This document shows, piece by piece, positions 2,770-29,694 of a DNA stretch of 33,552 nucleotides; position 1 is the first letter of the stretch; every line of letters begins with the position of its first letter. The stretch comes from Lysobacterales bacterium (GTDB lineage Bacteria; Pseudomonadota; Gammaproteobacteria; Xanthomonadales; Rhodanobacteraceae). The notes under the pieces were generated by a model. That model did not search any database and was not told the origin of the DNA. It saw only the letters and a program-made list of their open reading frames with translations. The stretch spans positions 1 to 33,552 of the forward strand of contig JAFKMZ010000035.1 of assembly GCA_017305055.1 (NCBI GenBank). The letters are read 5' to 3'. Made by a program: the position numbers and the translations under genes.

Positions 2770-5451
2770 ATGAGCACGTACAACCTCGACGCCTTCGTGA
2801 AGCCAGCCTCCGTGGCCCTGGTTGGTGCCAGCCGACGAGCGGGCTCGGTGGGTGCTGTTTCCGCGCGCAACCTGCGCTCGTTTCCGGGGCCCAAGTTCCT
2901 GGTCAATCCGCATTTGCAGGCCGATGCGGCGGCGGGCGTGTATTGCCAGGTGACAGACCTGCCGGCAGCACCGGACCTGGCCGTCATCGCCGTCCCGGCA
3001 GCGGGAGTGCCCGGGGTGGTCGCCGACCTGGGTCGGCTCGGCACGCGGGCCGCCGTGGTGCTGTCGGCCGGGTTTGCCGAGTCCTCGGCAGGTGATGCCG
3101 GGCGCAGCTTGCGTGACGAGCTGCTGGCTGCCGCGCACGCCACCGGCATGCGCATCCTGGGACCCAACGGCATCGGCATGCTGGCGCCGCACGCGGGGCT
3201 CAATGCCGGCTTTGCCCAGGCATTGCCGCCGCGCGGGCAGCTTGCGCTGCTGTCGCAGTCGGGTGCGGTGCTGACCACGATGATCGACTGGGCCTGTTCC
3301 CGCGAGGTCGGTTTTTCCGCGCTGGTCTCGCTGGGCGAGATGGCCGAGGTGGACGTTGCCGACTGGCTCGATTACCTGGCGACCGAGCCGGGTACGCGGG
3401 CCATCCTGCTGTACCTGGAGAGCGTCCACGACGCGCGCAAGTTCATGTCCGCGGCGCGGCACGCCGCGCGGCTCAAGCCGGTGATCATCCTGAAGTCGGG
3501 ACGCAGCCCGGCCGCGGCCAAGGCGGCAGCCTCGCACAGCGGTGCACTGGCCGGCGGCGACGCGGTGTTCGACGCCGCCTGCCGGCGTGCCGGCATCCAG
3601 CGCGTGGCTACCCTGCTGCACATGCTGGATGCGGCCGAGATCCTGGCCCGCCCGCGACACCTGGGCGGTGACCGTCTGGCCCTGCTCACCAATGGCGGCG
3701 GCATGGGCGTGCTCGCGGCGGACCAGCTGCTCGATTCGGGTGGCCGGCTGGCGACGCTGCGTGAGGCGACGTGCGCGGCGCTGGACGCCGTCCTGCCGGC
3801 GGCGTGGTCGCACGGCAATCCGGTCGACATCGTGGGCGATGCGGGACCGGGGCGCTATCGCGCCGCGCTCGACGTGCTGCTCGCGGCGCCGGAAGTCGAT
3901 GCGGTGGCGACCATGTATTGCCCCACCGGCCTGGGCGATGCCGCGGCCGCGGCCGGTGGCGTGGTGGCGGCACTCGACGCGGGCTCGGCGCACAAGCCGG
4001 TGCTGGCGGCCTGGCTCGGCCCGGTGGCCGAGGCGGCGGCGCGGGCGCCGTTTGCGGCCGCCGGCATTCCCGGCTTCGGCACGCCGGAAGCACTGGTGCG
4101 CGGGTTCATGCAATTGGTCGATCGGCAGCGCCAGCAAATCCAGCTGAGCGAAACCGTACCGGCGTTCCCCCTGCGCGGCGCGGCCAACCGCGACGAAGTG
4201 CGCCAGCTCATCGATGGCTGGCTGCGCGACGGGGTCGAGTGGCTGGACGAGGCCGATGCCAAGCTGCTGCTGGCCAGCGCCGGCTTCGAGGTCAACGCGA
4301 CCCGGCGCGCCGCGACGGCGGACGAGGCCCGGTTGGCGGCGCAGGCCATCCCCGGGCCGTATGCGGTCAAGATCCTGTCCCCCGACCTGTTGCACAAGAG
4401 CGACGTGGGTGGGGTCGCGCTCAACGTGGAAAGTGCCGACGAAGTGGCGCGGGTGGCGGCCGGCATGATCGAGCGCCTGCACACCGCCTATCCGCAGGCG
4501 CGCCTGTCCGGGGTTTCGGTGCAGACCATGGTCATGCGTACAGACGCGCGCGAGTTGATCGCTGGCCTGACCATGGATCCGATCTTCGGCCCGGTGATCG
4601 TGTTCGGTGCCGGTGGCGTGGCAGTCGAGGCCATGGACGACACCGCGCTGGCGCTGCCGCCGCTCAATGTGAACCTGGCGCGCGACCTGGTCGCGCAGAC
4701 GCGCATTTCCCGCGTGCTGGCCGGCGCCAAGGGCCGCCTGCGGCCGGCTGACCTGCCACGGCTGTACGCGTTGTTGATACGCCTGAGCGAACTGGTGTGC
4801 GAGTTTCCCGAGATCGTGGACCTCGACCTCAACCCCATCCTGCTCAATCCGGAAGGCTGCATCGCCATCGATGCCCGGGTCCGGCTCCGCGCCGTGCCTC
4901 CCGGTACGCCCAGCCGGCTGGCGATCGTGCCTTATCCGCGCGAGCTGGAGCAGCCGTTCGTGCTGCCCGACGGCAGCCGCTGCCTGCTGCGCCCGATCCG
5001 CGCCGAGGACGAGCTGCCGATGCGCGAGGCCTTCCGCCAGCTGTCGCCGGAGCGCCGCTACATGCGCATGTTTGCCGCGCTCGACGAGCTGCCGCACGAG
5101 CTGGCGGCGCGGGCCACGCAGATCGACTATGACCGCGAAATAGCCTTCGTCATCGCGCAGGACAAGCCGGCCGGCGAGGCGGCCCTGTACGGCGGCGTGC
5201 GCCTGCTCAGCGACGCCAACCGCGAGCGCGGCGAGTTCGCCATCACCCTCATCGACCCCCTGGTTGGCCACGGCATCGGACATCGCCTGATGCAGATACT
5301 CATCGATTACGCCAAGGGTCTCGGCCTGCGCGAGGTGACGGGCGACGTCCTGGTCGGCAACCAGCCGATGCTGGCCTTGTGCCGCAGCCTGGGCTTCCAA
5401 CTGGAGCGCCTGGAGGGCGACGTGGTGCGGGCGCATCTCGCCCTGCGCTGA
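2770..5451 (+). CDS. Acetate--CoA ligase (NDP-forming)-like / GNAT acetyltransferase fusion, PatZ/YfiQ type
   Basis: Large cytosolic protein of 893 residues. In order: a CoA-binding Rossmann domain (ASVALVGASRRAGSVG, 14-28); a succinyl-CoA-synthetase-like ligase domain (about 150-460) with SHSGALAG holding H256; an ATP-grasp domain (about 480-700; VKILSPDLLHKSDVGGV is its characteristic stretch); and a C-terminal GNAT domain (about 725-893; LVGHGIGHRLMQ is the acetyl-CoA pyrophosphate loop). In enterobacteria such fusions (Pat/PatZ) acetylate lysines of acetyl-CoA synthetase and other enzymes, and the ligase part senses acetyl-CoA. Here the histidine corresponding to the phospho-histidine of active ADP-forming ligases is retained, so ligase activity is possible. 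It is followed 98 bp later by a separately promoted stress protein. Confidence 0.9.
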   Translation: MSTYNLDAFVKPASVALVGASRRAGSVGAVSARNLRSFPGPKFLVNPHLQADAAAGVYCQVTDLPAAPDLAVIAVPAAGVPGVVADLGRLGTRAAVVLSAGFAESSAGDAGRSLRDELLAAAHATGMRILGPNGIGMLAPHAGLNAGFAQALPPRGQLALLSQSGAVLTTMIDWACSREVGFSALVSLGEMAEVDVADWLDYLATEPGTRAILLYLESVHDARKFMSAARHAARLKPVIILKSGRSPAAAKAAASHSGALAGGDAVFDAACRRAGIQRVATLLHMLDAAEILARPRHLGGDRLALLTNGGGMGVLAADQLLDSGGRLATLREATCAALDAVLPAAWSHGNPVDIVGDAGPGRYRAALDVLLAAPEVDAVATMYCPTGLGDAAAAAGGVVAALDAGSAHKPVLAAWLGPVAEAAARAPFAAAGIPGFGTPEALVRGFMQLVDRQRQQIQLSETVPAFPLRGAANRDEVRQLIDGWLRDGVEWLDEADAKLLLASAGFEVNATRRAATADEARLAAQAIPGPYAVKILSPDLLHKSDVGGVALNVESADEVARVAAGMIERLHTAYPQARLSGVSVQTMVMRTDARELIAGLTMDPIFGPVIVFGAGGVAVEAMDDTALALPPLNVNLARDLVAQTRISRVLAGAKGRLRPADLPRLYALLIRLSELVCEFPEIVDLDLNPILLNPEGCIAIDARVRLRAVPPGTPSRLAIVPYPRELEQPFVLPDGSRCLLRPIRAEDELPMREAFRQLSPERRYMRMFAALDELPHELAARATQIDYDREIAFVIAQDKPAGEAALYGGVRLLSDANRERGEFAITLIDPLVGHGIGHRLMQILIDYAKGLGLREVTGDVLVGNQPMLALCRSLGFQLERLEGDVVRAHLALR

Positions 5452-6611: not shown

Positions 6612-7388
6612 TCAGCCGCGCAGGCTGCGCACCAGCATCAGGATCGCCACGGCGGCGATGGCCAGCGCGAAAATCAGGTTCAGGGCGCCGCGGGTCCGTG
6701 CCAGGCGCGTCGCGGCCAGCGCGCCCAGCCAGCCGCCGACGGCACCGCCAAGGATGAACTCGGCGGTGATCCCCCAGGCGACCAGACCGGAGCGCGCGTA
6801 GTTGACCGCGGCGGTGAGGCCAAAGGCGCCCACCGCGAACAGCGAGGTACCGATCGCCTGGATGATCTCCATGCCGCTGGCGAACATCAGCCCCGGCACG
6901 ATCAGGAAGCCGCCGCCGATGCCGAAGAAGCCGGCCAGGCTGCCGGTACCCAGGCCCACGGCGCCGAGCCGCGGGTACATGCCGGGCAGCGGATAGCGAT
7001 CGTCCTGGCCGCGTCGGCCACGCAGCATGAAACCGGCCACGACCAGCATCAACAGCGCGAACAGGATCAGCAGGTGGCGGCCGTCGACCGCCTTGCCCAG
7101 GCTGGAGCCGGCAAACGCACCGAGCACGCCGGCGGCGGCAAATGCGAACGCCGCCTTCCAGCGCACATGGCCGGCGCGCGCGTGCGGGATCAGGTTGGCA
7201 AACGCGTTGACCGACACCGCCAGGGCGCTGGTGCCGATGGCCAGGTGCGGATCGTGGACGCCCACTACATACAGCAGCAAAGGCACGGCAAGGATCGAGC
7301 CGCCGCCACCGATCAAGGCCAGCGAGAAGCCCACCAGTGAGCCACAAGCCACGGCGAGGGCGGCCTGCAGGAGCGCGGGATCAGTCAT
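6612..7388 (-). CDS. Sulfite exporter TauE/SafE family membrane protein
   Basis: Inner-membrane protein of 258 residues, nearly all hydrophobic, with about eight predicted membrane segments. It shows the paired TauE/SafE repeats: the first around GFSLALIGGGGSILAVPLLLY (19-40), the second around GSLAGFFGIGGGFLIVPGL (about 154-172). The family moves small sulfur anions such as sulfite or sulfoacetate. It lies 33 bp downstream of the persulfide-dioxygenase-like gene, in the same order as in known bigR operons, where the exporter is thought to remove sulfite made by persulfide oxidation. The substrate here is inferred from that context. Confidence 0.88.
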   Translation of the reverse strand: MTDPALLQAALAVACGSLVGFSLALIGGGGSILAVPLLLYVVGVHDPHLAIGTSALAVSVNAFANLIPHARAGHVRWKAAFAFAAAGVLGAFAGSSLGKAVDGRHLLILFALLMLVVAGFMLRGRRGQDDRYPLPGMYPRLGAVGLGTGSLAGFFGIGGGFLIVPGLMFASGMEIIQAIGTSLFAVGAFGLTAAVNYARSGLVAWGITAEFILGGAVGGWLGALAATRLARTRGALNLIFALAIAAVAILMLVRSLRG

Positions 7389-7421
7389 GCCGGCGTGGGG
7401 CGCAGGGGACGAAAGGCACGC

Positions 7422-8288
7422 TCAGAGGACGTCCAGCGGGATCTTCAGGTAGTGCGTGCCGTTGTCCTCCGCAGGCGGGAAATGGCCGGCGCGCATGTTC
7501 ACCTGCACGGCGGGCAGCAGCAGCTGCGGCAGCTTCAGCGTGGCATCGCGGCGGTTGCGCATGGCCACGAACCCGGCTTCGTCGATGCCGTCATGGATGT
7601 GGATGTTGCGCTCCCGCTCGGCGGCCACCGTGGTTTCATGCGCGTACTCGTCGCGACCCGGTGCCTTGTAGTCGTGGCACAGGAAGACTCGCGTCGCGCT
7701 GGGCAGGGCGAAGATGCGGCGGATCGAGCGGTACAACGTGGCCGCGTCGCCGCCGGGGAAATCGCAGCGGGCGGTACCGTAGTCGGGCATGAACAGCGTG
7801 TCCCCCACGAACGCGGCATCACCGATCACGTGGGTCATGCAGGCCGGGGTGTGCCCAGGCGTGTGCAGTGCGGTGGCGGCGATGTGGCCCACCTGGTAGC
7901 GCTCACCGTCGGTGAACAGGTGGTCGAACTGGCTGCCGTCGCGGGCAAAGCCGTCGCCGGCGTTGAACAGCGTGCCGAACGTGTCCTGCACGTCGCGGAT
8001 GTGCTCGCCGATCGCCAGTTTGCCGCCCAGCTGGCTGCGCACATAGGGCGCGGCAGAGAGATGGTCGGCGTGCACGTGGGTCTCCAGCACCCAGGTCACC
8101 GTCAGCTCCCGGTTCTTGGCGAAGGCAATGAGCTGGTCGACGGACTGGTGGTCGCTACGCCCGGATGCCGCCTCGTAGTCCAGCACCGGGTCGATCACCG
8201 CGGCTTCGCGCGTGGCCGGGTCCCAGGCGATGTAGCTGAAGGTGCTGCTGGCGTGGTGGAAGAACGCCTCTACTTCAGGAGCGGACAT
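7422..8288 (-). CDS. MBL-fold persulfide dioxygenase-like hydrolase (Blh/ETHE1 type)
   Basis: Cytosolic protein of 288 residues with a metallo-beta-lactamase fold: H71-x-H73-x-D75-H76 (THVHADH), H146 in HTPGH, D163 in GDTLF, and H205 in FLCHDY. The GTARCDFPGGD segment is typical of the ETHE1/Blh branch, where a single iron oxidises glutathione persulfide to sulfite. The ATG at 8288 has GGAGAGAAG just upstream, so I prefer it to a longer open frame reaching 8471 that would overlap the repressor gene. It lies between a BigR-type repressor and a TauE/SafE exporter, matching bigR-blh operons of Xylella and Agrobacterium. Unlike those Blh proteins I see no attached DUF442/rhodanese domain. Confidence 0.9.
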   Translation of the reverse strand: MSAPEVEAFFHHASSTFSYIAWDPATREAAVIDPVLDYEAASGRSDHQSVDQLIAFAKNRELTVTWVLETHVHADHLSAAPYVRSQLGGKLAIGEHIRDVQDTFGTLFNAGDGFARDGSQFDHLFTDGERYQVGHIAATALHTPGHTPACMTHVIGDAAFVGDTLFMPDYGTARCDFPGGDAATLYRSIRRIFALPSATRVFLCHDYKAPGRDEYAHETTVAAERERNIHIHDGIDEAGFVAMRNRRDATLKLPQLLLPAVQVNMRAGHFPPAEDNGTHYLKIPLDVL

Positions 8289-8338
8289 CGACTTCTCTCC
8301 ATGCCATGGCCCGGCAGCGACCCCGCTGGCGGTCGGAA

Positions 8339-8695
8339 TCAACGGGTGGCCTTGCGCCGGCGCGCAGGCGGTGCCGCAGTGCAGTAGATATCGTACAGCG
8401 TGGCGATGATCTGCCCGGCCGGACCGGGCTCGAGCGCATACCAGATGGTCTGCGACTCGCGCCGCGTGCACACCAGGCCTTCGCTGCGCAGCCGGGCCAG
8501 ATGTTGCGACAGCGCCGACTGGGCCAGGTCGGGCAGGCGTTCGTTGATCTGCCCCACCGACATCTCACCATCGGCCAGAAGGCACAGCACGCGCAGGCGT
8601 TGCGCGTTGCCCAGGGCCTTGAGCAGGCGCGAGGCGTCCTCGGCGCGGGCCTGCATGGCCCCCAGGTCGGCATGGTTCGGCAAAGGCATGCTCAC
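8339..8695 (-). CDS. bigR: BigR/SqrR-type ArsR-family persulfide-sensing repressor
   Basis: Winged-helix repressor of 118 residues. The HTH is at about 55-75 (DLAQSALSQHLARLRSEGLV). Counting from the GTG start, cysteines are at 38 (LRVLCLLADGE), 76 and 105 (YDIYC). The pair C38/C105 lies in the same places, with almost the same spacing (67 against 66 residues), as the sensing pair of SqrR and BigR, which forms a polysulfide bridge. I choose the GTG at 8695 because GGAG lies 9 bp upstream; the ATG at 8689 is 15 bp from it and is the main alternative. It heads the blh-TauE operon and is divergent from the sqr operon, with operator-like dyads in between. Confidence 0.88.
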   Translation of the reverse strand: MSMPLPNHADLGAMQARAEDASRLLKALGNAQRLRVLCLLADGEMSVGQINERLPDLAQSALSQHLARLRSEGLVCTRRESQTIWYALEPGPAGQIIATLYDIYCTAAPPARRRKATR

Positions 8696-8742
8696 GCGTC
8701 CGGTCTCCGTAGGTCGGCTGCTGCAGGTATTGACCTTAGCAC

Positions 8743-8781
8743 GCGTTACTAAATAAGATAACGCTAATGTAGTAAACACTA
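8743..8781. promoter_or_regulatory. Operator-like dyads and promoter of the bigR operon
   Basis: A perfect inverted repeat GCGTTA-N10-TAACGC lies at 8743-8764 in an AT-rich stretch. A second, TAGT-AAAC-ACTA, is at 8770-8781. On the minus strand TTTACT (8776-8771), 17 bp, TTTAGT (8753-8748) is a plausible promoter for the repressor operon, with the first dyad covering the -10. This fits autorepression by the BigR-like protein. On the plus strand TTGACC (8730-8735) with TAAGAT (8754-8759) could be a second promoter toward sqr. Assignment to BigR is inference from position. Confidence 0.6.
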
Positions 8782-8790
8782 TTGCAGAGG

Positions 8791-8832
8791 TTGATTCCGA
8801 TCAAGTCGGTGTTGCAAGTACGTACCTATGGT
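8791..8832 (+). promoter_or_regulatory. Perfect Fnr/Anr box and -10 upstream of sqr
   Basis: TTGATTCCGATCAA at 8791-8804 is a full 10-of-10 match to TTGAT-N4-ATCAA. TATGGT at 8827-8832 is a good -10, and its centre is 32 bp from the box centre, the class II activation spacing. Transcription would start near 8839 and leave a leader of about 55 nt before the ATG at 8894. Anaerobic activation of the sqr operon by an Fnr/Anr/Dnr protein is therefore likely; which member binds cannot be told from the site. Confidence 0.8.
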
Positions 8833-8893
8833 GGGGCCGCCCTCGGTCACGGTGGGCGGGCTTGTCGCCATACATCACGCGGAGTGTCGAATC

Positions 8894-10180
8894 ATGGCAA
8901 GGATCATCATCCTGGGCGCTGGTCTGGCCGGCATGTCGGCGGCCTACGAGATTCGCGAGGCCGTGGGTCGCGGACATGCGATCACCGTGGTCGGCGATGG
9001 AGCGGAGTTCAATTTCACGCCGTCCAACCCCTGGGTCGCCGTGGGCTGGCGCCCGCAGGATGCGATCCGGGTCAAGGTCCGGGAGCCGCTGGCCCGGCAT
9101 GGCATCGACTTCATCGACGTCCGGGCCAGCCGTGTGCACCCGGCCGACAACCTGGTCGAGCTGGTCGACGGGCGCAGGCTGGACTATGACTACCTGGTGA
9201 TCACCACCGGCCCGCGTCTGGCTTTCGAGCGCGTTCCGGGCAGTGGTCCGGACGGCCACTCGCAGTCGATCTGCACCGGGCCGCATGCGCAGCAGGCCTG
9301 GGTGGCGTATCAGGAATTCCTGAAACACCCGGGACCGGTGGTCATCGCCGCCGCCCAGGGTGCCAGCTGCTTCGGCCCGGCCTACGAGTTCGCCATGATC
9401 GTGGATACCGACCTGCGCCGGCGCAAGCAGCGCGACCGCGTGCCGATGACCTACGTCACTTCCGAACCCTACGTTGGCCACATGGGCCTGGGCGGCATCG
9501 GCGATTCCAAGGGCCTGCTCGAATCGGAGCTGCGGCAGCGGCATATCAAATGGATCACCAATGCGCGGGTGACCTCAGTGGAGTCCGGCAAGCTCAACGT
9601 CGAGCAGCTCGATGAGCATGGCGGCGTGCGGGAGAACCACGCGCTGCCGTTCGCGTTCTCGATGTTGTTGCCGTCGTTTGCCGGCGTCGACGCAGTGCAG
9701 GGCATCGAGGGCCTGGTCAACCCGGGCGGCTTCGTGCTGATCGACGCCTTCCAGCGCAACCCGACCTACCCCAACGTGTACGCCGCAGGCGTGTGTGTGG
9801 CCATCCCGCCAGTCGAGGTCACGCCGGTACCCACTGGCGCGCCCAAGACCGGCTTGATGATCGAATCGATGATCGCGGCCATCGCACACAACCTGCGCGA
9901 TGCCCTTGCCGGCCGTCCGCCGCAGGCGCGCGCCACCTGGAACGCGATGTGCCTCGCTGACATGGGCGATCGCGGCTTTGCCTTCATCGCCTTGCCGCAG
10001 ATTCCCCCGCGCAATGTGACCAAGGCCATGGTGGGCAAGTGGGTACACCTGGCCAAGGTGGCCTACGAAAAATACTTCCTGCGCAAGATGCGCAAGGGCA
10101 AGGCCTACCCGAGCTACGAGAAACACATCATGGAGGCGTTCGGCATCACGCGCCTGAAGCAGGACCTCAAGCCGGACTGA
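8894..10180 (+). CDS. sqr: Sulfide:quinone oxidoreductase
   Basis: Membrane-associated flavoprotein of 428 residues that oxidises sulfide to polysulfide or persulfide and passes electrons to the quinone pool. The FAD dinucleotide fold is at the N-terminus (IIILGAGLAGMSAAYE, 4-19). Three cysteines, C127, C159 (GASCFGPAYEF) and C353 (WNAMCLADMGDRG), match the three functional cysteines of the Acidithiobacillus ferrooxidans enzyme (128, 160, 356 as I recall). PPVEVTPVPTGAPKTG and the basic C-terminus (WVHLAKVAYEKYFLRKM) are also characteristic. The ATG at 8894 has GGAG 9 bp upstream; an upstream in-frame ATG at 8828 would fall before the predicted transcript start. It is the first gene of a run of close plus-strand genes through 15699. 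Confidence 0.95.
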   Translation: MARIIILGAGLAGMSAAYEIREAVGRGHAITVVGDGAEFNFTPSNPWVAVGWRPQDAIRVKVREPLARHGIDFIDVRASRVHPADNLVELVDGRRLDYDYLVITTGPRLAFERVPGSGPDGHSQSICTGPHAQQAWVAYQEFLKHPGPVVIAAAQGASCFGPAYEFAMIVDTDLRRRKQRDRVPMTYVTSEPYVGHMGLGGIGDSKGLLESELRQRHIKWITNARVTSVESGKLNVEQLDEHGGVRENHALPFAFSMLLPSFAGVDAVQGIEGLVNPGGFVLIDAFQRNPTYPNVYAAGVCVAIPPVEVTPVPTGAPKTGLMIESMIAAIAHNLRDALAGRPPQARATWNAMCLADMGDRGFAFIALPQIPPRNVTKAMVGKWVHLAKVAYEKYFLRKMRKGKAYPSYEKHIMEAFGITRLKQDLKPD

Positions 10181-10223
10181 TGCCGCCACCTTCCGCTCTG
10201 TCCATTGAACGCTGGAGAACAAC

Positions 10224-10430
10224 ATGAGCATTGAACGTACGGTACTGGCCTTTGCCGGGGCGATGATCCTGATCAGCCTGGGCCTGGCCCACTTCGTGGC
10301 GCCGGGCTGGCTGTGGCTGACCGCCTTCGTCGGCCTGAACCTGTTCCAGTCCGCGTTCACCGGCTTCTGCCCGCTGGCGAAGGTGCTGAAAAAGCTGGGC
10401 CTGAAGCCGGGTTGCGCCTTTGCGCGCTGA
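10224..10430 (+). CDS. DUF2892 small membrane protein
   Basis: Protein of 68 residues with two hydrophobic segments (about 5-24 and 27-45) and [17 protein letters not shown] after the second. This pattern is typical of DUF2892 (YgaP-like membrane domain), often found fused or next to rhodanese and sulfide-oxidising proteins. Two cysteines, at 49 and 64, could carry sulfane sulfur, as proposed for YgaP-type proteins. The gene has GGAG before its ATG and sits 43 bp after sqr. Function is inferred from context: a membrane partner in sulfur handling. Confidence 0.85.
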
Positions 10431-10460
10431 GCCACCGCAGCATCCATCCGTGAGGTCACC

Positions 10461-10844
10461 ATGTATTACATCGTCGAGTCGGGGAAAACCTTTGCCCAGG
10501 CGGTCAGCGATCTGGACGCGGCCGTCCGTCGTCACCAATTCGGCGTGCTGCATGTGCACGATCTGGGCACCACCTTGCGCGGCAAGGGCCAGTCCTTTGC
10601 CGGCGAGTGCAAGGTGTTCGAGGTGTGCAGCCCGGCGCAGGCAGCCAAGGTTCTGGCCAGCGACCTGCGCCTGAACATGGCGCTGCCGTGCCGGATCTCC
10701 GTCTACACCGAAGGCGACGCGACGCGCATCGGCATGCTCAGGCCGGTGCCGATGCTGGGCATGCTGTCCGCCGACCCAACCCTGGCCGCCATCGCCCAGG
10801 AAGTCGAGCGCGCCACCATGCAGATGATCGACGAGGCGGCATGA
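10461..10844 (+). CDS. DUF302 protein
   Basis: Protein of 127 residues without a signal peptide. It matches the DUF302 pattern: YYIVESGKTFAQAVSDLDAAVRRHQFGVLHVHDLG at the N-terminus, then FEVCSPAQAAKVLASD and LPCRISVYTEGD. DUF302 proteins are small alpha/beta proteins of unknown biochemical role, often next to sulfur oxidation and cytochrome genes. Two cysteines (in FEVC and LPC) are conserved-looking. Its stop overlaps the start of the RND adaptor by 4 bp (ATGA), so translation is coupled to the pump genes. This ties the pump to the sulfide genes. Confidence 0.87.
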   Translation: MYYIVESGKTFAQAVSDLDAAVRRHQFGVLHVHDLGTTLRGKGQSFAGECKVFEVCSPAQAAKVLASDLRLNMALPCRISVYTEGDATRIGMLRPVPMLGMLSADPTLAAIAQEVERATMQMIDEAA

Positions 10845-11932
10845 GCGTGCCCCGCGGCCTGCGCTGGATCACGCTCGCGACAGCCGGTGTGCTGCTGGCC
10901 GGCTGCGCGGCGCCGTCACCACCGGACCATGCCGGGTCTCCACCGGAGCTCGCCACGCTGGTGGTGCAGGCGCAGGTGGCGCCGCGCGCGCAGACCTGGG
11001 ACGGCGTGGTCGAGGCGGTGCAGCAGGTGACGATCACCGCGCAGACCAATGCGCGGGTCACTGCGCTGCCCTATGACGTGGGCGACAAGGTGGGCAAAGG
11101 CGCGGTGCTGGCGCGCTTCAGCGCGGTCGAGCAGCAATCGGCGCGCGACAGCGCACAGGCGCAGGTGGCCTCGGCGCAGGCCGCCTATCGCGACGCGCAG
11201 GCGTCCTTCGAGCGCATCGCCACGGTCTACGGACAGGGTTATGTGTCCACGGCGCAGATGGATCAGCAGCGTGCCGCGCGCGATGCGGCCAAGGCCGCGC
11301 TGCAGGCGGCGCAGGCGCAGGCGCAGGCCGCTGGCCAGCAACTCGACTACACCGTATTGCGGGCGCCGTTTGCCGGCGTGCTCACGCAGCGCTACGTGCA
11401 CGTGGGGCAGGCCGTGCAGTCCGGGCCACCGTCGCCGCAGCCGCTGCTGCAGTTGCAGGCGCTGGACGCACTGCGCGTGACGGTGCAGGTTCCGCAGGGC
11501 GCGGCGGCCGTGATCCGGCGTGATCCGGTCGCCGAGGTGGCGATCGGCGGGCAGCGCCTTGCGGCCGGCCGGGTCGAAGTGCTGCCGTATGCCGATCCAC
11601 TGACCCACAGCGTCACCGTGCGCGTCGCGCTGCCGGCGGATCTGGGCGGCCTGTATCCGGGAGTCACTGCCAAGGTGACGTTTGCCGGCGGTGAGGCGAC
11701 GCGCCTGCTGGTGCCGCTGACGAGCGTGGTCGAGCGCGGAGAGTTGGTCGCGGTCTACGTGGTTGGCGCCGACGCGGTCACCCTGCGTCAGGTGCGCCTG
11801 GGCCAGCGTGAGGGCGGGCAGGTCGAAGTGTTGGCTGGACTCGGCGCCGGCGAGCGCGTGGCCAGCGATCCGGCGGCGGCCATGAACTGGCTGGTCAAGC
11901 GGCATGCGGCGGGCGCCAGCGGCCATGGCTGA
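10841..11932 (+). CDS. RND efflux periplasmic adaptor lipoprotein
   Basis: Protein of 363 residues. The signal sequence ends in the lipobox LLAGC (C22), so it is an inner-membrane-anchored lipoprotein facing the periplasm. It then has a lipoyl-like half (about 58-85), a long helical hairpin rich in Ala and Gln (about 95-165), the second lipoyl half (LDYTVLRAPFAGVLTQRYVHVGQAV) and beta-barrel and membrane-proximal domains. This is the normal membrane fusion protein layout. It starts inside the DUF302 stop codon and overlaps the permease gene by 8 bp. No outer-membrane factor gene lies in the window, so a TolC-like protein elsewhere would be needed. Confidence 0.92.
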   Translation: MSVPRGLRWITLATAGVLLAGCAAPSPPDHAGSPPELATLVVQAQVAPRAQTWDGVVEAVQQVTITAQTNARVTALPYDVGDKVGKGAVLARFSAVEQQSARDSAQAQVASAQAAYRDAQASFERIATVYGQGYVSTAQMDQQRAARDAAKAALQAAQAQAQAAGQQLDYTVLRAPFAGVLTQRYVHVGQAVQSGPPSPQPLLQLQALDALRVTVQVPQGAAAVIRRDPVAEVAIGGQRLAAGRVEVLPYADPLTHSVTVRVALPADLGGLYPGVTAKVTFAGGEATRLLVPLTSVVERGELVAVYVVGADAVTLRQVRLGQREGGQVEVLAGLGAGERVASDPAAAMNWLVKRHAAGASGHG

Positions 11933-14900
11933 CCCACAGCGGCTCGGCATCTCCGGGCGCATCGCCCGCGCCTTCCAGGCCGCGCAGCTCACGCCCTTGC
12001 TGGCGCTGGCGGCCCTGCTGTTGGGCATCGGCGCGGCCATCATCACGCCCAAGGAGGAGGACCCGCAGATCGAGGTGACCATGGCCAACGTGCTGGTGCC
12101 GTATCCCGGGGCCAGCGTGCGCAGCGTGGAGAACCTGGTCAGCTTTCCGCTCGAGCAGCAGCTGACGGCGATCAAGGGTGTCAAACACGTGTACTCGGTG
12201 AGCCGGCCGGGCATGGCGGTGCTGACCGTGGAATTCCAGGTCGGCGTGCCGCGCCAGCAGGCGCTGGTCGACCTGTACAACCAGATCTATTCCCATGCCG
12301 ACTGGATTCCTCCGGGTCTCGGCGTCGGCCAGCCGCTGGTCAAACCCTACGGCATCGACGATGTGCCGATGCTGGCCCTCACCCTGTGGTCGGACCGGCC
12401 CGAGACCACCGCAGGCCAGCTGGCCAAGGTTGCGCACACGCTGGAGACCGAGCTCAAGCGCATCCCCGGCACGCGCGACGTCTACACCATCGGCGCGCCC
12501 GACCGTGCGGTGATGGTCGAGCTCGATCCGGCCAGGCTGGCCGCCTACCAGCTCAGCGTGGGCGACCTGGCCAATGTCCTGCGCGCCGCCAATGTCGCCG
12601 CCGATGTGGGCAGCATGGTGGCCGGCAACCGCGACCTGCCGGTCAAGGCCGGCAGTCTGCTGATGCAGGCCGGGGACGTGGCGCAACTGGTGATCGGCGC
12701 GCGCGATGGCCATCCGCTGCATCTGTCCGATGTGGCCACCGTGACTGCCAGTCACGACCACCTCACGCAGCTGGTGTCCTTTGGCACCCCGCCTGGGCGC
12801 GCCGGGCCACGGACCGGGCTGACTCCGGCGGTGACCATCGCCGTCGCCAAGAAGAGTGGCACCAACGCGCACGACATTGCCGGAGCCATCCGCGACCGCC
12901 TGCAGGCGCTGCAGGGCGTGGCCATTCCCGAGGGCGTGCAGGTCACGCTGACCCGCGACTATGGGCAGACGGCCAATACCAAGGCCGACGAACTGCTGTT
13001 GCACCTGGCCCTGGCGGCGATGGCCGTGGTGCTGCTGGTGCTGGTGGCACTGGGTTGGCGCGAGGCGGTGGTGGTCGGCACCTCCGTGGTGGTGACCCTG
13101 GCCTTGACCCTGTTCGCCTCCTGGGCCATCGGCTTCACCATCAACCGCGTCTCGCTGTTTGCGCTGATCTTTTCCATCGGCATCCTGGTCGACGACGCCA
13201 TCGTGGTGGTGGAGAACATCCACCGGCACATGGCGCTGGGCGGCAAGCCGCTGCGGGAAGCCATCCCGGCGGCGGTCGACGAGGTCGGCGGCCCGACCAT
13301 CCTGGCCACCTTCACGGTGATCGCCGCGCTGCTGCCGATGGCCTTCGTCGGCGGCCTGATGGGGCCGTACATGCGGCCCATCCCGATCAATGCCTCGGTG
13401 GGCATGCTGATCTCGCTGGCGGTGGCCTTCGTGGTGGCGCCATGGCTTGCCCGGCAGCTGTTGCGCCGTCAGCACCCGGTGGTCGACGACGGTGCTGCGT
13501 CGGTTGAGGCAGGCGGGCAGTCGGCGCTCGACCGCTTCCTGCAGGGGCTGTTCAAGCGCGTGATGGGACCGTTCCTGGCGGGCCCCAAGGCGGCGCGCAA
13601 CCGGCACCGGCTGTTCCTCGGCATGGGCGTGCTGGTGCTGGCGGCGGCCGGCCTGGCCGGGGTCAAGCTGGTGATCCTGAAGATGCTGCCGTTCGACAAC
13701 AAGTCCGAGTTCCAGGTGGTGCTCGACCTGCCCGAGGGTTCCGCGCTGGAGCAGACCCAGCGCGCGCTGACCGAGCTCGGCCTGGTGCTGGATGGCGTGC
13801 CCGAGGTCGCGGACTACCAGCTCTATGCGGGGACGTCGGCGCCGATGAATTTCAACGGCCTGGTGCGCCAGTACTACCTGCGCAGCGAGCCCTGGCAGGG
13901 CGACATCCAGGTGAACCTGGTGGACAAGGCCGGGCGCAGGCGCCAGAGCCATGCCATCGCGCTGGCGGTGCGCCCGGCGCTGGCCGCGGTGGCCAAGCGC
14001 TTCGACGCGCGCCTGGTGGTGGCCGAGGTGCCGCCCGGCCCGCCGGTGCTGGCGCCGATCGTGGCCGAGATCTACGGGCCGGACCAGGCCGGACAGCGCG
14101 CCATGGCCGGCGCGCTGGAGCAGATGTTCGCGGCTACGCCGGGGATCGTGGACGTCAACCGCAGCGTCGAGGACACGCGCGCCACGCGCCAGCTGGTCGA
14201 GGTCGACCGCGCGCGCGCGGCGGCGCTGGGCATCAGCCAGGCGGAGATCGTCGCTGCCCTGCGCGCCGGCGTCGGCGGTGAGGCGGCCAGCCATCTCGCC
14301 GACGCCAACGCCAGGGTCGCGGTGCCGGTGGTGCTGCGCCTGCCCGCGGCCGACCTGGGTTCGCTGGACGCGGTGCTGGCCTTGCGCGTGCGCAGCGCCG
14401 CAGGGGGGCTCGTGCCGCTCTCCGAGCTGGTCACGGTGGTGCGCGAGCCCTGGGCGGACGCGGTCTACCACAAGGACCTGCGCCCCTACACCTTCGTCAC
14501 CGGCGACGATGCCGGGCCCGAGGACAGCCCGGTCTACGGCATGTTCGCCCTGGTCGCCAAGCTGGCCAGGGCCGGGCTCGACGGCCAGCGCCTGACCCAG
14601 GCCTTCGTCAACCCCGCCGCCAGCGACAGCAGCTACTCGATCCACTGGAGCGGCGAATGGGAGATCACCTACGAGACCTTCCGCGACATGGGCATCGCCT
14701 ACTCGCTCGGCCTGCTGCTGATCTACCTGCTGGTGGTGGCGCACTTCCACAGCTACCTGGTACCGCTGGTGATCATGGCGCCGATCCCGCTCACCGTGAT
14801 CGGGGTGATGCCCGGGCACTGGCTGCTCGGGGCGCAATTCACCGCCACCTCGATGATCGGCATGATCGCGCTGGCCGGCATCATCGTGCGCAACTCGATC

Positions 14901-15212
14901 CTGCTGGTGGATTTCATCAACCACGCGCTGGCGCGTGGGGCGGGCCTGGAGCAGGCCGTGGTCCAGGCCGGCGCGGTGCGCGCCAAGCCCATCATCCTCA
15001 CCGCCCTGGCGGCGATGCTCGGCGCGTTCTTCATTCTCGGCGACCCGATCTTCCAGGGCCTGGCGGTGTCCCTGGTGTTCGGCGTGCTGGTGTCGACCGT
15101 GCTGACCCTGCTGGTCATTCCGCTGCTGTATTACGTATGGTTGCGGCGGCGGCGCGCAGTCGACGACGCGCACAGCGACCAACGCCCCGTCACGCCGACG
15201 GAGGCCAACTGA
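11925..15212 (+). CDS. RND efflux permease (AcrB/HAE-like superfamily)
   Basis: Inner-membrane proton-driven pump of 1095 residues, a normal RND length with 12 membrane segments and two large periplasmic loops. TM4 carries D423-D424 (GILVDDAIVVVENIHRHMALGGK), the proton-relay acidic pair of HAE-type pumps, not the metal-type pattern. The N-terminus (ITPKEEDPQIEVTMANVLVPYPGAS) puts it in a branch distinct from classic AcrB. The ATG at 11925 overlaps the adaptor by 8 bp; an in-frame ATG at 11904 is possible. It is followed 16 bp later by an OsmC gene. Its place in a sulfide-oxidation operon suggests that it exports a sulfur metabolite or thiol conjugate; the sequence alone does not show the substrate. 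Confidence 0.95.
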   Translation: MADPQRLGISGRIARAFQAAQLTPLLALAALLLGIGAAIITPKEEDPQIEVTMANVLVPYPGASVRSVENLVSFPLEQQLTAIKGVKHVYSVSRPGMAVLTVEFQVGVPRQQALVDLYNQIYSHADWIPPGLGVGQPLVKPYGIDDVPMLALTLWSDRPETTAGQLAKVAHTLETELKRIPGTRDVYTIGAPDRAVMVELDPARLAAYQLSVGDLANVLRAANVAADVGSMVAGNRDLPVKAGSLLMQAGDVAQLVIGARDGHPLHLSDVATVTASHDHLTQLVSFGTPPGRAGPRTGLTPAVTIAVAKKSGTNAHDIAGAIRDRLQALQGVAIPEGVQVTLTRDYGQTANTKADELLLHLALAAMAVVLLVLVALGWREAVVVGTSVVVTLALTLFASWAIGFTINRVSLFALIFSIGILVDDAIVVVENIHRHMALGGKPLREAIPAAVDEVGGPTILATFTVIAALLPMAFVGGLMGPYMRPIPINASVGMLISLAVAFVVAPWLARQLLRRQHPVVDDGAASVEAGGQSALDRFLQGLFKRVMGPFLAGPKAARNRHRLFLGMGVLVLAAAGLAGVKLVILKMLPFDNKSEFQVVLDLPEGSALEQTQRALTELGLVLDGVPEVADYQLYAGTSAPMNFNGLVRQYYLRSEPWQGDIQVNLVDKAGRRRQSHAIALAVRPALAAVAKRFDARLVVAEVPPGPPVLAPIVAEIYGPDQAGQRAMAGALEQMFAATPGIVDVNRSVEDTRATRQLVEVDRARAAALGISQAEIVAALRAGVGGEAASHLADANARVAVPVVLRLPAADLGSLDAVLALRVRSAAGGLVPLSELVTVVREPWADAVYHKDLRPYTFVTGDDAGPEDSPVYGMFALVAKLARAGLDGQRLTQAFVNPAASDSSYSIHWSGEWEITYETFRDMGIAYSLGLLLIYLLVVAHFHSYLVPLVIMAPIPLTVIGVMPGHWLLGAQFTATSMIGMIALAGIIVRNSILLVDFINHALARGAGLEQAVVQAGAVRAKPIILTALAAMLGAFFILGDPIFQGLAVSLVFGVLVSTVLTLLVIPLLYYVWLRRRRAVDDAHSDQRPVTPTEAN

Positions 15213-15228
15213 ACCCAAGGAGCCTGTC

Positions 15229-15699
15229 ATGAGCGAGACCGAGGAATTCAGCATCACCCTGACCCAGGAATCGGACTACGCCTTCCGCATCGCCTTCGAC
15301 GACCCCGGGATACCGGCGTTGCATACCGACGAGCCCGCGCCGCTGGGCGGCGGCAGCGGGCCGAACCCGTCGCGGCTGCTGCTGGCCGCCGTGGCCAACT
15401 GCCTGAGCGCCAGCCTGCTGTTCGCGCTGCGCAAGTACAAGAACACACCGGGCACGATCGTGACCCACGCCAGGGCACAGCTGGAGCGCAACGACGAACG
15501 GCGCCTGCGGGTCACCCGCATCGAGGTGAGCATCGATCTGCCCGATGCCGCCGGCGACTACACGCAGGCCGAACGCCTGCTGCAGCAGTTCGAGAATTTC
15601 TGCGTGGTCACCGAGAGCGTGCGCAGCGGAATCGACGTGGATGTGAGCGTGCGGGATGCGACAGGGGCGGTTGTGCATCACAGCGCCGGACGCGGTTGA
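15229..15699 (+). CDS. OsmC-family thiol peroxidase-like protein
   Basis: Cytosolic protein of 156 residues with the OsmC/Ohr fold. The two signature cysteines are C58 (LLAAVANCLSASLLFALRK) and C125 (FENFCVVTESVRSGI), placed as in OsmC proteins that reduce hydroperoxides and, in some cases, organic polysulfides. The RBS AAGGAG lies upstream of the ATG. It is the last gene of the sqr-DUF2892-DUF302-RND run, 16 bp after the permease. In a sulfide operon it may act on persulfides as well as peroxides (inference). A hairpin follows at 15743-15770. Confidence 0.92.
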   Translation: MSETEEFSITLTQESDYAFRIAFDDPGIPALHTDEPAPLGGGSGPNPSRLLLAAVANCLSASLLFALRKYKNTPGTIVTHARAQLERNDERRLRVTRIEVSIDLPDAAGDYTQAERLLQQFENFCVVTESVRSGIDVDVSVRDATGAVVHHSAGRG

Positions 15700-15742
15700 C
15701 CTGACACCCACTGCGGCTTGAAAGCGATCGCTACATGATGAA

Positions 15743-15770
15743 GCGGGCTGCCGATACATTGGCAGTCCGC
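15743..15770. terminator. Hairpin between convergent OsmC and norB genes
   Basis: GCGGGCTGCC (15743-15752) and GGCAGTCCGC (15761-15770) form a 10-bp stem with one G-T wobble and an 8-nt loop (GATACATT). It lies between the ends of two converging operons, the place for a bidirectional terminator. No long T-run follows on either strand, so termination strength is uncertain. Confidence 0.6.
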
Positions 15771-15807
15771 CTCCTCTCCCCTGATCGATGGCTCGCGGTG
15801 CCGTGCG

Positions 15808-17508
15808 TTACACGAGGTTCGGCACCATCGCGTCGTCGGCAGTTGTCGGCTCGCCGGCCACCGCCATGCGTGCCTCCATGGATGCCAGGAAGCGCCAGAC
15901 GAACAGCATGGTCACCAGCAGCAGACCCGGGTAGCCCACACCGGCAAGCAGGTAGGGCAGGGTCGGGTCGCCATCCACGCGCACGCGCGGCAGGTTGAAG
16001 CTGAGCAGGCCAAGCGTGATGACGGTGCCGAACACCCACATCCACAGCAGCCAGATCCCGGCCTCGAATCCGGTCAGTGGCTTGCGCCAGCCGGTGACGC
16101 GACGGTCCGCGGTGACGTCGTGGTCGAACGTTCCCGCCGGCGTCTGCACGCGCTGGCCGAGCGTGATCAGGTCGTACATGATGGTCAGCGCGCCGGCCAC
16201 GAAGACCAGGCCGAAGATGGGCAGCATCAGCTTGAACACGCCCATGGAGCGGTAGATGTCGCCACCGAACCAGTCCAGCCCAAGGATGCGGTAGACGTAC
16301 ACCTGCACCGTGCCGCCGATGGAAAAGGCGAAGGCCAGGCCGAGCACGCCGGTGAACACCAGCCAGAAGCCGAGCTTGCCCAGGCGCTGGTCATAGTGCG
16401 GCACCTTGCGGATGATCGGCATGGCGTAGTACGCGGCTGCCAGTCCCAGCATGCCGAAGGTGCCGAACAAGGCCAGGTGCGCGTGGCCGGCCGTCACCCA
16501 GGTGCCGTGCGACCACACGTTGGTCAGCGCGAAGGTCATCACGAAGCCGAGGATGCCCGCGCCGACCAGCTCCAGCACGGTCGAGCCCAGCAGGAAGTAG
16601 AACGCCGGCGCGTTTTCCAGTGGTCGCTTGTTGGTGTGCGCATCCAGGTAGATGTGCCAGAAGCAGAACACCAGCGGCAGCGGTTCCAGCGCGCTGAACA
16701 GCGAGCCCCAGAACTGCCAGAACTCCGGCGTGCCGATCCAGAAGTAGTGGTGCGCGTTGCCGATCAGCCCGGACAGCCACACCAGGGTGATGCCCCAGAA
16801 CACCGCGAAGCCGACCGACTTGATGTCGGCCTTGAACATCAGCACCAGGAAGGTGCCGATCAGGCTGATGTGGATGACCTCCCACACGCCCTCGACCCAG
16901 TAGTGCACGACGAACCAGCGGAAGTACTCCTGCAGGTCGAGGCGCTGGATATAGAACAGGCCGAAGACCCACACCACCATCAGCGCGGTGAAGCCGAGGC
17001 CGAGGCCCCAGTGCACCTCATTCCACTGGCGGATGGGCGGGAAGGTGCGCAGCACCACGAAGGCGACGATGGCGAAGCCGACGAAGATCAGGATGCCGGC
17101 GATGCGCCCCGCCTCCAGGTATTCCAGCCCCTGCTGCAGCCAGGGCTGGTCCAGCCACCAGCCGGCGACGCCCCGTTCGGCCAGGAATTGGGTGAAGAAG
17201 TTCCACAGCACGATGACGATCACCGCATAGAACAGGAACTTGATCAGCCAGGGCGCCACCATCTCGCGCTTGGACAGCAACGGCCCGACAAACAGGATCG
17301 AGCCGATGAAGCCGCACACGATCCACATGATGCCGAGGTTCAGATGCTCGGCGCGGGCGACGTTGAAGTTCAGCACGCCGCTGAGCAGGGTCGGATCGAC
17401 CTGCTGGGCCGCCAGGATCATGCCGTAGATGACCTGGAAGCCGAACAGCACCAGCATCAGCATGAAGAAGCGCAGGCTCAAGCGTTGTGTCTTGTATTGG
17501 ATTTGCAT
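15808..17508 (-). CDS. norB: Nitric oxide reductase catalytic subunit NorB, C-terminally extended
   Basis: Polytopic haem protein of 566 residues, about 14 predicted membrane segments, which reduces NO to N2O. All cNOR ligands are visible: H55 (EHLNL) and H344 for low-spin haem b, H342 for haem b3 (AGHAHLALFG), H202 (VHYWVEGVWE), H253 and H254 (NAHHYFWIG) for FeB. The NOR-type glutamates E206, E210 and E275 (SALEPLPL) are also present. All these numbers are offset by a constant 5 from Pseudomonas aeruginosa NorB as I remember it. cNorB is usually 450-470 residues, so about 100 residues and two helices are added at the C-terminus. The ATG at 17508 (GGAG 8 bp upstream) overlaps the norC stop by 1 bp; a GTG at 17511 is the alternative. 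Confidence 0.9.
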   Translation of the reverse strand: MQIQYKTQRLSLRFFMLMLVLFGFQVIYGMILAAQQVDPTLLSGVLNFNVARAEHLNLGIMWIVCGFIGSILFVGPLLSKREMVAPWLIKFLFYAVIVIVLWNFFTQFLAERGVAGWWLDQPWLQQGLEYLEAGRIAGILIFVGFAIVAFVVLRTFPPIRQWNEVHWGLGLGFTALMVVWVFGLFYIQRLDLQEYFRWFVVHYWVEGVWEVIHISLIGTFLVLMFKADIKSVGFAVFWGITLVWLSGLIGNAHHYFWIGTPEFWQFWGSLFSALEPLPLVFCFWHIYLDAHTNKRPLENAPAFYFLLGSTVLELVGAGILGFVMTFALTNVWSHGTWVTAGHAHLALFGTFGMLGLAAAYYAMPIIRKVPHYDQRLGKLGFWLVFTGVLGLAFAFSIGGTVQVYVYRILGLDWFGGDIYRSMGVFKLMLPIFGLVFVAGALTIMYDLITLGQRVQTPAGTFDHDVTADRRVTGWRKPLTGFEAGIWLLWMWVFGTVITLGLLSFNLPRVRVDGDPTLPYLLAGVGYPGLLLVTMLFVWRFLASMEARMAVAGEPTTADDAMVPNLV

Positions 17509-18497
17509 CACTGCTTCTCCTGGCCGCGAAGCGAGGCTATGTAGGAGACGATGGCTTTGACCTCGTCTTCCTTCAGCAGGGTCGAGTAGTCCGGCATCAC
17601 GCCAGGTGTATAGCCGTCCACGATCTGTGCGTTCGGCTTGACGATGGATTCGGTGATATAGGCGTCATCGGCGGTCACCGAGGTGCCATCGCTGAGCTTG
17701 ACCTGCGACCCGTACAGGCCGCCCCAGCCGGGACCGACGAGCTTCTGCTTGTCGCTGGCATGGCAGGCAATGCAGCCATAGTCCCTGGCCAGCCGTTCGC
17801 CGTGCACGGCCGGGTCCTCCGGGGTGGCCGCGGCCTCCGTTGGCACGGCGGCAGCCGGCGCCACTTGTCCGCCCGTCGGCGTGAACCCGGCGCCATGGGC
17901 CATGCGCAGGCGGTCGTTCAAATCACCCTTGACCAGGATCTTGGCTGGCCAGCCCTCGGTGTTCATGGCCGAGGTGTACTTGAGGTAGGCGAGCAGCTTG
18001 CCGATTTCCTCCTGGGTGAACGGCAGGTTTGGCATGCTGGTGGTGCCTCCGCCGCGTCGTGCGATACGGTCTGCCGCGCCGGGATATTTCTTCAGGTAGG
18101 CCTCGATGGTGTCGACGCCGGCTTCGGCCTGCATTCCGGGGTTGACCAGCTGAGTACGCACCGCTGCCTCGGTGGGCCAGCCGCCGGCCGAGGGCAGGAA
18201 GGCCGCAAGCCACGCCGGACCGGCGAGCCGGTATTCCTCGGTGAGGTCCGGGCCGAGATAGGCGCCGTTGCCGACCAGGGTGTGGCAACCCATGCAGTTG
18301 TAGGCCTGGAAGATGTGCTTGCCCTGGTCAGCGGTATAGGCGCCGTAGGTGATCTGGCTGGGGACCGTCTGGTTCCGCGATCTGGTGAACGAGAACACCG
18401 ACAGGAAAATGAAGATGGCGGTCATCACTCCCAGCATGACGAAGGCGCCACGCCGGCGCGGTATCTCGCAACTGCTGTCGCCTGCTCCGCAGCTCAT
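17508..18497 (-). CDS. norC: NorC-like cytochrome c with a second, COX II-type cytochrome c domain
   Basis: Membrane-anchored periplasmic protein of 329 residues. One TM helix (about 19-37) is followed by a NorC domain with C68-x-x-C71-H72 (NCMGCHTLVGNGAYLGPDLT) and a likely axial Met at 155. A Pro/Ala-rich linker (about 203-228) leads to a second class I cytochrome c with C242-x-x-C245-H246 and a likely axial Met at 301 (GVMPDYS). The second domain (KLVGPGWGGLYGSQVKLSDG) resembles the C-terminal cytochrome c of caa3-type oxidase subunit II rather than NorC. Usual NorC is about 150 residues with one haem. The fused domain would be an extra electron entry point. It overlaps its upstream neighbour by 4 bp and norB by 1 bp. 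Confidence 0.88.
   Translation of the reverse strand: MSCGAGDSSCEIPRRRGAFVMLGVMTAIFIFLSVFSFTRSRNQTVPSQITYGAYTADQGKHIFQAYNCMGCHTLVGNGAYLGPDLTEEYRLAGPAWLAAFLPSAGGWPTEAAVRTQLVNPGMQAEAGVDTIEAYLKKYPGAADRIARRGGGTTSMPNLPFTQEEIGKLLAYLKYTSAMNTEGWPAKILVKGDLNDRLRMAHGAGFTPTGGQVAPAAAVPTEAAATPEDPAVHGERLARDYGCIACHASDKQKLVGPGWGGLYGSQVKLSDGTSVTADDAYITESIVKPNAQIVDGYTPGVMPDYSTLLKEDEVKAIVSYIASLRGQEKQ

Positions 18498-26766: not shown

Positions 26767-26770
<4 letters not shown>
25601..26770 (-). CDS. ABC-2 type exporter permease (YbhS-like)
   Basis: Membrane protein of 389 residues with the same plan as its partner: an N-terminal TM (about 44-65; LLIAFVLPVVLLLLFAYAVSL), a periplasmic domain (about 66-200), then a TM bundle including IPGAIAIVMTIIGTMLTALVVAREWERGTMEAVLSTP. 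Its start overlaps the ATPase gene by 4 bp (ATGA) and its stop is 3 bp from the next permease start, so the three are tightly coupled. Likely forms a heterodimer with the downstream permease. YbhFSR in Escherichia coli has been linked to drug and cation export; the substrate here is unknown. Confidence 0.92.
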
Positions 26771-28539
<1,769 letters not shown>

Positions 28540-28541
28540 CT

Positions 28542-29576: not shown

Positions 29577-29694
29577 CGGTTGGTTTCCGCGTGGAAGAGG
29601 CGTCTGGTGCGCGTGGCAGATGGACGCGGGGTGATGGCGACGGCCGCTACCGCAACCGAGCAGGCGGCTTGGCGAGCGCAGGAAGGAATGCGCT

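Follow-up and report, generated by a model that had tools for sequence, protein, structure and literature searches.

A conserved RND pump linked with sulfide-oxidation genes in Pseudomonadota, and its possible part in sulfur export

The stretch analysed here (hereafter, the window) comprises 33,552 nucleotides of contig JAFKMZ010000035.1 from a Lysobacterales bacterium (Rhodanobacteraceae; assembly GCA_017305055.1), and the system in question is a resistance-nodulation-division (RND) efflux pump that lies among genes for sulfide oxidation. Six open reading frames run head-to-tail on the plus strand from 8894 to 15699, and their Pfam matches fit the names given to them: sulfide:quinone oxidoreductase (SQR, gene sqr; 8894..10180), a DUF2892/YgaP-like transmembrane protein (10224..10430), a DUF302 protein (10461..10844), an RND periplasmic adaptor or membrane fusion protein (MFP; 10841..11932), an RND permease (11925..15212; alternative in-frame ATG at 11904), and an OsmC/Ohr-like protein (15229..15699). 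The intergenic gaps are 43 bp (sqr/DUF2892), 30 bp (DUF2892/DUF302), and 16 bp (permease/osmC); DUF302 overlaps the adaptor by 4 bp and the adaptor overlaps the permease by 8 bp. The original prediction, made from this DNA alone, had described the same six genes with gaps of at most 43 bp and these two overlaps, and we reproduced all of its coordinates.

SQR matched PDB 3sz0 over residues 2–424 (E 1e-158), and its C127, C159, and C353 were each kept in 46 of 46 panel rows. We take 3sz0 to represent an Acidithiobacillus ferrooxidans-like SQR, whose cysteines are presumably those numbered 128/160/356; judged by full-length similarity and the three cysteines, the protein belongs with the A. ferrooxidans type. 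In the DUF2892 protein (PF11127, 49 bits), C49 was near-invariant (91/92 panel rows), and the two conserved cysteines of the DUF302 protein (PF03625, 51 bits) each occurred in 14/18 rows, using a profile whose seeds included two mixed-frame rows. Both cysteines of the OsmC/Ohr-like protein (PF02566, 54 bits) are present, and their columns were kept in 20/21 and 19/21 rows. Rhodaneses of relatives share one conserved cysteine (45/47 rows). On these counts, the recurring partners of the pump are conserved-cysteine proteins, several of them from known sulfur-handling families. The adaptor itself matched TIGR01730 at 185 bits (cut-off 95) and has a lipobox, LAGC, recognized by eye.

Absent from the original prediction was a set of three minus-strand genes (6612–8689) that diverges from sqr and encodes a regulator, a protein of the MBL fold, and a TauE exporter. 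The BigR/SqrR-type ArsR regulator (8339..8689; start ATG set by eye) scored 88 bits against the BigR model NF040642, below its equivalog cut-off of 155 bits, and its PDB relatives were HlyU (4k2e), ArsR (6o8k), YgaV (3cuo), and 3pqj, in searches that used a stretch without the first codon. Its cysteines, counted by hand, lie at residues 36 and 103, which we take to be the SqrR positions, and its sequence therefore fits the two-cysteine pattern of SqrR/BigR-like regulators; 44 of the 70 neighbouring regulators, that of the window among them, have both cysteines. The MBL-fold protein (7422..8288; start ATG set by eye) is persulfide dioxygenase-like and resembles the dioxygenase half of Blh. It matched NF040641, the model of the bifunctional Blh sulfurtransferase/dioxygenase, at positions 140–423 only (368 bits vs. 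a cut-off of 625), with the N-terminal part unmatched, and by this comparison is no full-length Blh. Its best PDB relatives were 9g8t and 4ysk, and the ETHE1 persulfide dioxygenase 4chl scored 85 bits (the searches used a stretch starting 3 bases upstream of the start ATG). The third protein (6612..7388) belongs to the TauE/SafE or sulfite exporter family (PF01925, 161 bits, E 4.5e-47). Because of this divergent arm, the locus can be described as a two-armed sulfide/persulfide module that goes beyond a six-gene operon.

Between the arms, we detected a promoter-like site (TTGACC-18-TAAGAT; 8730..8759, +) and a predicted operator, CTAAATAAGATAACGCTAATGTAGT (8749..8773, +), that overlaps its −10 element. 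Simple scans of positions 8600–15850 found no second promoter-like site and no plus-strand terminator-like site; shuffled sequence gave on average 0.4 promoter-like sites (sd 0.6). A separate promoter for the pump, which would have spoken against the original prediction, was thus not found, and the single operator and promoter-like site precede the whole gene set. The operator was predicted from a 25-base motif shared with intergenic regions that separate, in 33 relatives, a regulator of this kind from an SQR, DUF2892, or adaptor gene. The motif was trained on 11 of the 33 regions, picked by eye as being of the window's type; the window was excluded from the computation, and the choice was not blind, as all 33 regions plus the window's had been seen beforehand. 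At 31.7 bits, the operator was the best motif site in the whole 33.5-kb window (best outside that intergenic region, 13.6 bits), a score reached by 0/1000 shuffles in each of three shuffle types, and the left-out scores of the 11 training sites ranged from 18 to 37 bits. We infer that the regulator contacts the DNA at this operator and represses from it, and it would sense sulfane sulfur through persulfide-dependent release.

At twelve other loci, mostly of Burkholderiales or other Proteobacteria by title, a second ArsR type stands before the adaptor. It lacks the two SqrR cysteines (over the whole alignment, cysteine occupies column 91 in 18 and column 95 in 21 of the 70 rows), and a different AT-rich repeat was seen there by eye. 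This regulator may give the same pump a second sensor.

We surveyed 299 Pseudomonadota genomes, our own included, for the permease (E ≤ 1e-200) and SQR (E ≤ 1e-100). The permease was matched in 138 genomes and SQR in 77, with both in 63, the permease alone in 75, SQR alone in 14, and neither in 147 (odds ratio 8.8, p = 1.4e-13, uncorrected for kinship). For at least 38 of the 77 SQR genes, a permease of this family was listed no more than 10 kb away; this is a lower bound that counts listed permease matches only, with SQR taken from up to five scored candidates per genome. These 38 genes come from 11 GTDB-family codes, 16 of them from a single code. The phylum-wide linkage is real, conserved, and beyond chance. 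Whether the permease keeps company with sulfide genes outside this strain had been raised by the original prediction, which would have been undermined by a linkage confined to it; the conserved neighbourhood extends well beyond it.

SQR, DUF2892, or rhodanese genes were found near the pump at 28 of 60 sampled loci and 56 of 80 named loci, and in none of 20 stretches around the genome's other RND pumps. Nearby here means within ~8 kb on each side (sampled loci and control) or ~9 kb (named loci), where contigs allow. With regard to the sampled loci, 35 were all the listed rows of ≥53% identity except the window and one other genome; the other 25, drawn from the lower rows, were a manual choice made blind to gene context that favoured complete genomes and a spread of families, so that the sample is not random. 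The named loci are the best 80 of 588 and therefore biased to close relatives. The control stretches cover 21 of the genome's 24 other PF00873 matches (three short or partial ones were excluded), and the gene panel, although seeded from the same loci as those surveyed, was applied to them with the same cut-offs. Since the genome has one SQR match (E 1e-100), the control says little on SQR and is informative on DUF2892, rhodanese, and BigR. Its tblastn form returned one weak OsmC hit (E 3e-05) and its panel form none.

Specifically, the sampled loci (n = 60) included SQR in 15, DUF2892 in 25, rhodanese in 16, a BigR-like gene in 16, an outer-membrane factor (OMF) in 29, DUF302 in 5, and OsmC in 4, and the corresponding numbers for the named loci were 21, 56, 15, 36, 16, 2, and 11; the BigR rows of the panel mix the SqrR type with another ArsR type. 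DUF2892 is a more constant partner of the pump than SQR, and DUF302 and OsmC are less constant. Gene orders varied, including SQR-DUF2892-MFP-RND-OsmC, MFP-RND-DUF2892-OMF-SQR (with the OMF inside), and MFP-SQR-RND-DUF2892, and the shuffling of order while content is kept argues for a shared task. A locus with a permease of only ~40% identity (L159) read ArsR-OMF-MFP-RND-DUF2892-rhodaneses-DUF302-SQR-OsmC. On a plasmid of the cyanobacterium Pseudanabaena, ArsR-DUF2892-SQR-ArsR was followed by DUF3122, an SCP-2-annotated protein, rhodanese, MFP, and RND, and in Asticcacaulis SQR-DUF2892 was divergent from rhodanese-MFP-RND. Closer to the window, three same-genus genomes carry the same gene set with permeases at 67–68%, and the permease of a Rhodanobacter metagenome-assembled genome (68%) is close to the best among the named permeases. 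Two further loci (L211 and L240) have SQR between adaptor and permease, an even closer placement of SQR and pump. An apparent ArsR-DUF302 fusion in two relatives proved to be two adjacent genes in different frames.

The permease belongs to the AcrB/AcrD/AcrF family of the RND superfamily (PF00873, 510 bits; gathering cut-off 28), and all listed matches to NCBIfam permease models were far under their cut-offs, including the HAE1 multidrug model (TIGR00915, 312 vs. 940 bits) and the heavy-metal CusA/CzcA model (TIGR00914, 258 vs. 701 bits). In a FastTree phylogeny, which gave long-branch warnings and left out two sequences as too short, 150 relatives stood on one side of a branch with support of 100, separate from 19 other RND permeases of the genome; intermediates may exist, because all 150 were recruited through their resemblance to the window's permease or to its alignment. 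The window's permease fell in a starred set of 10 rows, of which seven have SQR and three DUF2892, and sulfur linkage was present in deep branches (L159 among them) as well as in most others. A place among the ordinary drug pumps of this genome, which would have told against the original prediction, is rejected by this comparison of clades. Seventy-five columns that are fixed (≥95%) within the family differ from the genome's other RND pumps; they include a VExPPGPPV stretch and R989, where 10 of the 19 other rows have lysine. The acidic pair D423-D424, which had been offered as a mark of the HAE type, is indeed present and fixed in 150/150 relatives, but D423 is common to 19/19 other RND rows of the genome and D424 to 12/19.

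The best PDB sequence match of the permease reached 233 bits, so that no solved structure is close. A TriC-like pump was considered and dropped, as 6vej, which we take to be TriC, scored 201 bits, between MdtB (229) and AcrB (~183), and hence indicated no special kinship. The AlphaFold model (mean pLDDT 82.5) resembled AcrB, AcrD, and CmeB-like drug pumps at query-normalised TM scores of 0.79–0.84 and 21–24% identity (50 listed matches of 330, E ≤ 0.001).

As the original prediction had stated, no OMF is encoded nearby: no PF02321 match was found on the window's contig, and the operon thus lacks the third component of a tripartite pump. Thirty-one PF02321 stretches lie elsewhere in the genome, and the outer channel must therefore come from there; presumably the pump works with one of them. 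As counted above, about half of the sampled relatives carry an OMF within the stretch.

Taken together, we propose a detoxification module for sulfide and persulfide with its own efflux pump, induced by sulfane sulfur and exporting surplus zero-valent sulfur, and we consider the chances of this reading to be about even. A build-up of sulfane sulfur would cause the BigR/SqrR-type repressor (C36, C103) to leave the single operator located between the two arms. Expression of the plus arm would then supply SQR, oxidising H2S on the quinone pool, three thiol proteins (DUF2892, DUF302, and OsmC), and the adaptor-permease pair, which would recruit a TolC-type channel encoded elsewhere and clear the membrane or periplasm of excess zero-valent sulfur in the form of polysulfide, S8, or a thiol persulfide. 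On the minus arm, the MBL protein would oxidise persulfide to sulfite, to be exported by TauE. The enzyme activities in this strain are predicted from sequence. Export of a sulfur species, be it polysulfide, S8, or persulfide, is probably the role of the pump and the most likely one. Folds of the HAE type are suited to amphiphilic or hydrophobic substrates captured from the membrane or periplasm, and S8 and polysulfides, which SQR would produce at the membrane, would be fitting candidates. The same suitability for amphiphiles could be invoked for organic by-products that arise under sulfide stress, whether oxidised quinones, thiol conjugates, or damaged lipids, in place of inorganic sulfane sulfur, and the OsmC gene of the operon is suggestive of peroxide or organic damage. 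We noticed no enzyme of such a pathway among the annotated recurring neighbour clusters, most clusters being unannotated, and regard this explanation as very unlikely.

Several observations weigh against our proposal that the pump exports sulfur and need to be considered. No SQR, DUF2892, or rhodanese was found near 57 of the 150 clade members, some of which have a BigR-like gene and some of which, including six of the loci, sit at contig ends. The permease tree suggested by the original prediction thus upheld a clade separate from the genome's other RND pumps, in which sulfide-linked pumps are most, but not all. Thirty-five of the 57 fall in one subclade of 37 rows (the other two with rhodanese), six in another, and five in a small group, and the unlinked loci include Allochromatium, Halochromatium, Thiohalocapsa, and Thioalkalivibrio. 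Among the neighbours of the unlinked clades (LysR, AI-2E transporter, PhoH, and EAL genes, OMF, and a ~185-aa protein without a Pfam match over cut-off), no common functional theme was seen. Likewise, 25 of the 63 SQR genes in permease-bearing genomes were not near a permease among the matches listed; several of these are in broken-up assemblies, and in five genomes SQR and permease share a contig but are widely separated. Of the 70 neighbouring ArsR regulators, 26 lacked at least one of the SqrR-type cysteines. In the permease, no cysteine column was common to more than 30% of the family, so that nothing found there marks sulfur binding, no residues separated sulfur-linked from unlinked permeases at the thresholds used, and the modelled fold appears AcrB-like, that is, the fold of a drug pump.

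This predicted AcrB/CmeB/AcrD-like fold, together with the subclade that lacks sulfur neighbours, would also be expected of a general pump for multiple drugs or envelope stress that is controlled by sulfane sulfur but transports no sulfur compound. Efflux regulators that respond to sulfane sulfur have been reported, namely MarR in Escherichia coli (PMC8614764) and MexR (PMC9495516). Against this explanation, which we find improbable, the permease forms a separate clade, with 22–32% identity to the other RND pumps of the genome over tblastn segments, and its linkage is kept despite shuffled gene order across the 11 family codes.

At loci with unlinked permeases from genomes of another class of the phylum (L104 and four others, among more), paired ~185-aa proteins lie directly behind the permease; the single one scanned (L104) had no Pfam match over cut-off.

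Evidence in both directions comes from Azospira suillum PS. In favour of a sulfide-linked role, Dsui_3440-3443 (an unknown protein, an efflux pump, SQR, and an RND MFP) were highly expressed with H2S. The operon was flagged in 2017 by Bar-seq under H2S, the relevant section giving no sign for the fitness effect, and a separate DUF2892 gene was up ~10-fold (PMC5358917). Against sulfur export, H2S was oxidised at an unchanged rate when the complete operon was deleted, and the authors suggest metal sulfide export (PMC5358917). In line with their suggestion, the pump could remove metal-sulfide or metal(loid)-thiol complexes, thio-arsenicals included, arising from contact of sulfide with metals. 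Regulators of the ArsR type are frequent neighbours (16/60 sampled and 36/80 named loci), and in the cyanobacterium Geitlerinema, arsenic genes and the gene of a multidrug efflux pump are described as adjoining sqr2 (PMC5061849). Nonetheless, we consider metal export unlikely, given that the permease is far under the heavy-metal cut-off, that the 50 listed fold matches are drug pumps, and that the genes recurring beside it encode sulfur-transfer or thiol proteins, although metal genes were not sought systematically.

The original prediction of a pump built into a sulfide operon can thus be maintained with regard to its tie to sulfide genes beyond this strain, its own clade, its one operator and promoter-like site, and the sulfide-induced operon of the same gene types described for Azospira (PMC5358917); the sulfur export that it suggested stays conditional here. 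A stronger form of the proposal, namely that the RND clade as a whole is a dedicated exporter that pushes SQR-made polysulfide, membrane-dissolved S8, or thiol persulfide across the outer membrane, is tentative and in our view falls short of even chances. If it were true, sulfide-oxidising cells would dump sulfur outside, and a whole RND branch annotated as multidrug efflux would have a natural role. To our knowledge, no pump has previously been shown to export sulfane sulfur, and this clade would then be the first. Sulfane sulfur efflux is spoken of in one SqrR paper, with its mechanism given as unknown (PMC9995734). The recurrent RND clade in sulfide operons is a candidate for this exit, along with its partners (DUF2892 above all) and the predicted operator.

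Elsewhere in the window, the minus strand at 15808–18497 encodes a NorB-like protein of the COX1 family and a cytochrome c protein that has two stretches of haem domain and was judged by eye to be NorC-like; these genes are convergent with the sulfide operon, ~110 bp past osmC. A second exporter set on the minus strand (25601–29747) comprises an HlyD-type protein, a double ABC ATPase, and an ABC-2 permease, and a CoA-ligase/ATP-grasp/acetyltransferase fusion, Pat-like by eye, lies on the plus strand (2770–5451).

When compared with known systems, linkage of an RND pump with sulfide genes is already in print (PMC5358917; PMC12423496). The likely targets of sulfane-sulfur-responsive ArsR regulators were reported in 2025 to include RND pumps, SQR, PDO, rhodanese, and TauE (PMC12423496), a general genomic remark to which our study adds one permease clade, counts with a control, DUF2892 as the main partner, recurring DUF302 and OsmC, and an operator motif. 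In our literature searches, mostly outside subscription journals and without supplements, we found no paper joining DUF302 with sulfide quinone and RND, and no definition of this permease clade or its substrate. Persulfide-sensing ArsR regulators near rhodaneses and sulfur transporters (PMC10509353) and an RND/CzcA set that goes up on pyrite (PMC11267869) are also described and play no part in our argument. Among drug pumps, AcrB, AcrD, and CmeB (HAE1) are like the window's permease in predicted fold, acidic pair, and adaptor, and differ in sequence identity, in the family-fixed VExPPGPPV and R989, and in HAE1 model scores. The BigR and FisR sulfide operons of Acinetobacter baumannii share with the window the logic of PDO, SQR, TauE, and BigR, but the main text of that report does not contain the term RND (PMC7315123), whereas the window has an RND pump. 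The closest counterpart is the Azospira operon, which likewise joins SQR, an RND MFP, and an efflux pump and is sulfide-induced, and whose Dsui numbering fits the MFP-SQR-RND-DUF2892 order of L211 and L240; DUF302 and OsmC, both in the window, are not named in that account (PMC5358917). By analogy of gene types and numbering, the Azospira pump may well belong to the same permease clade.

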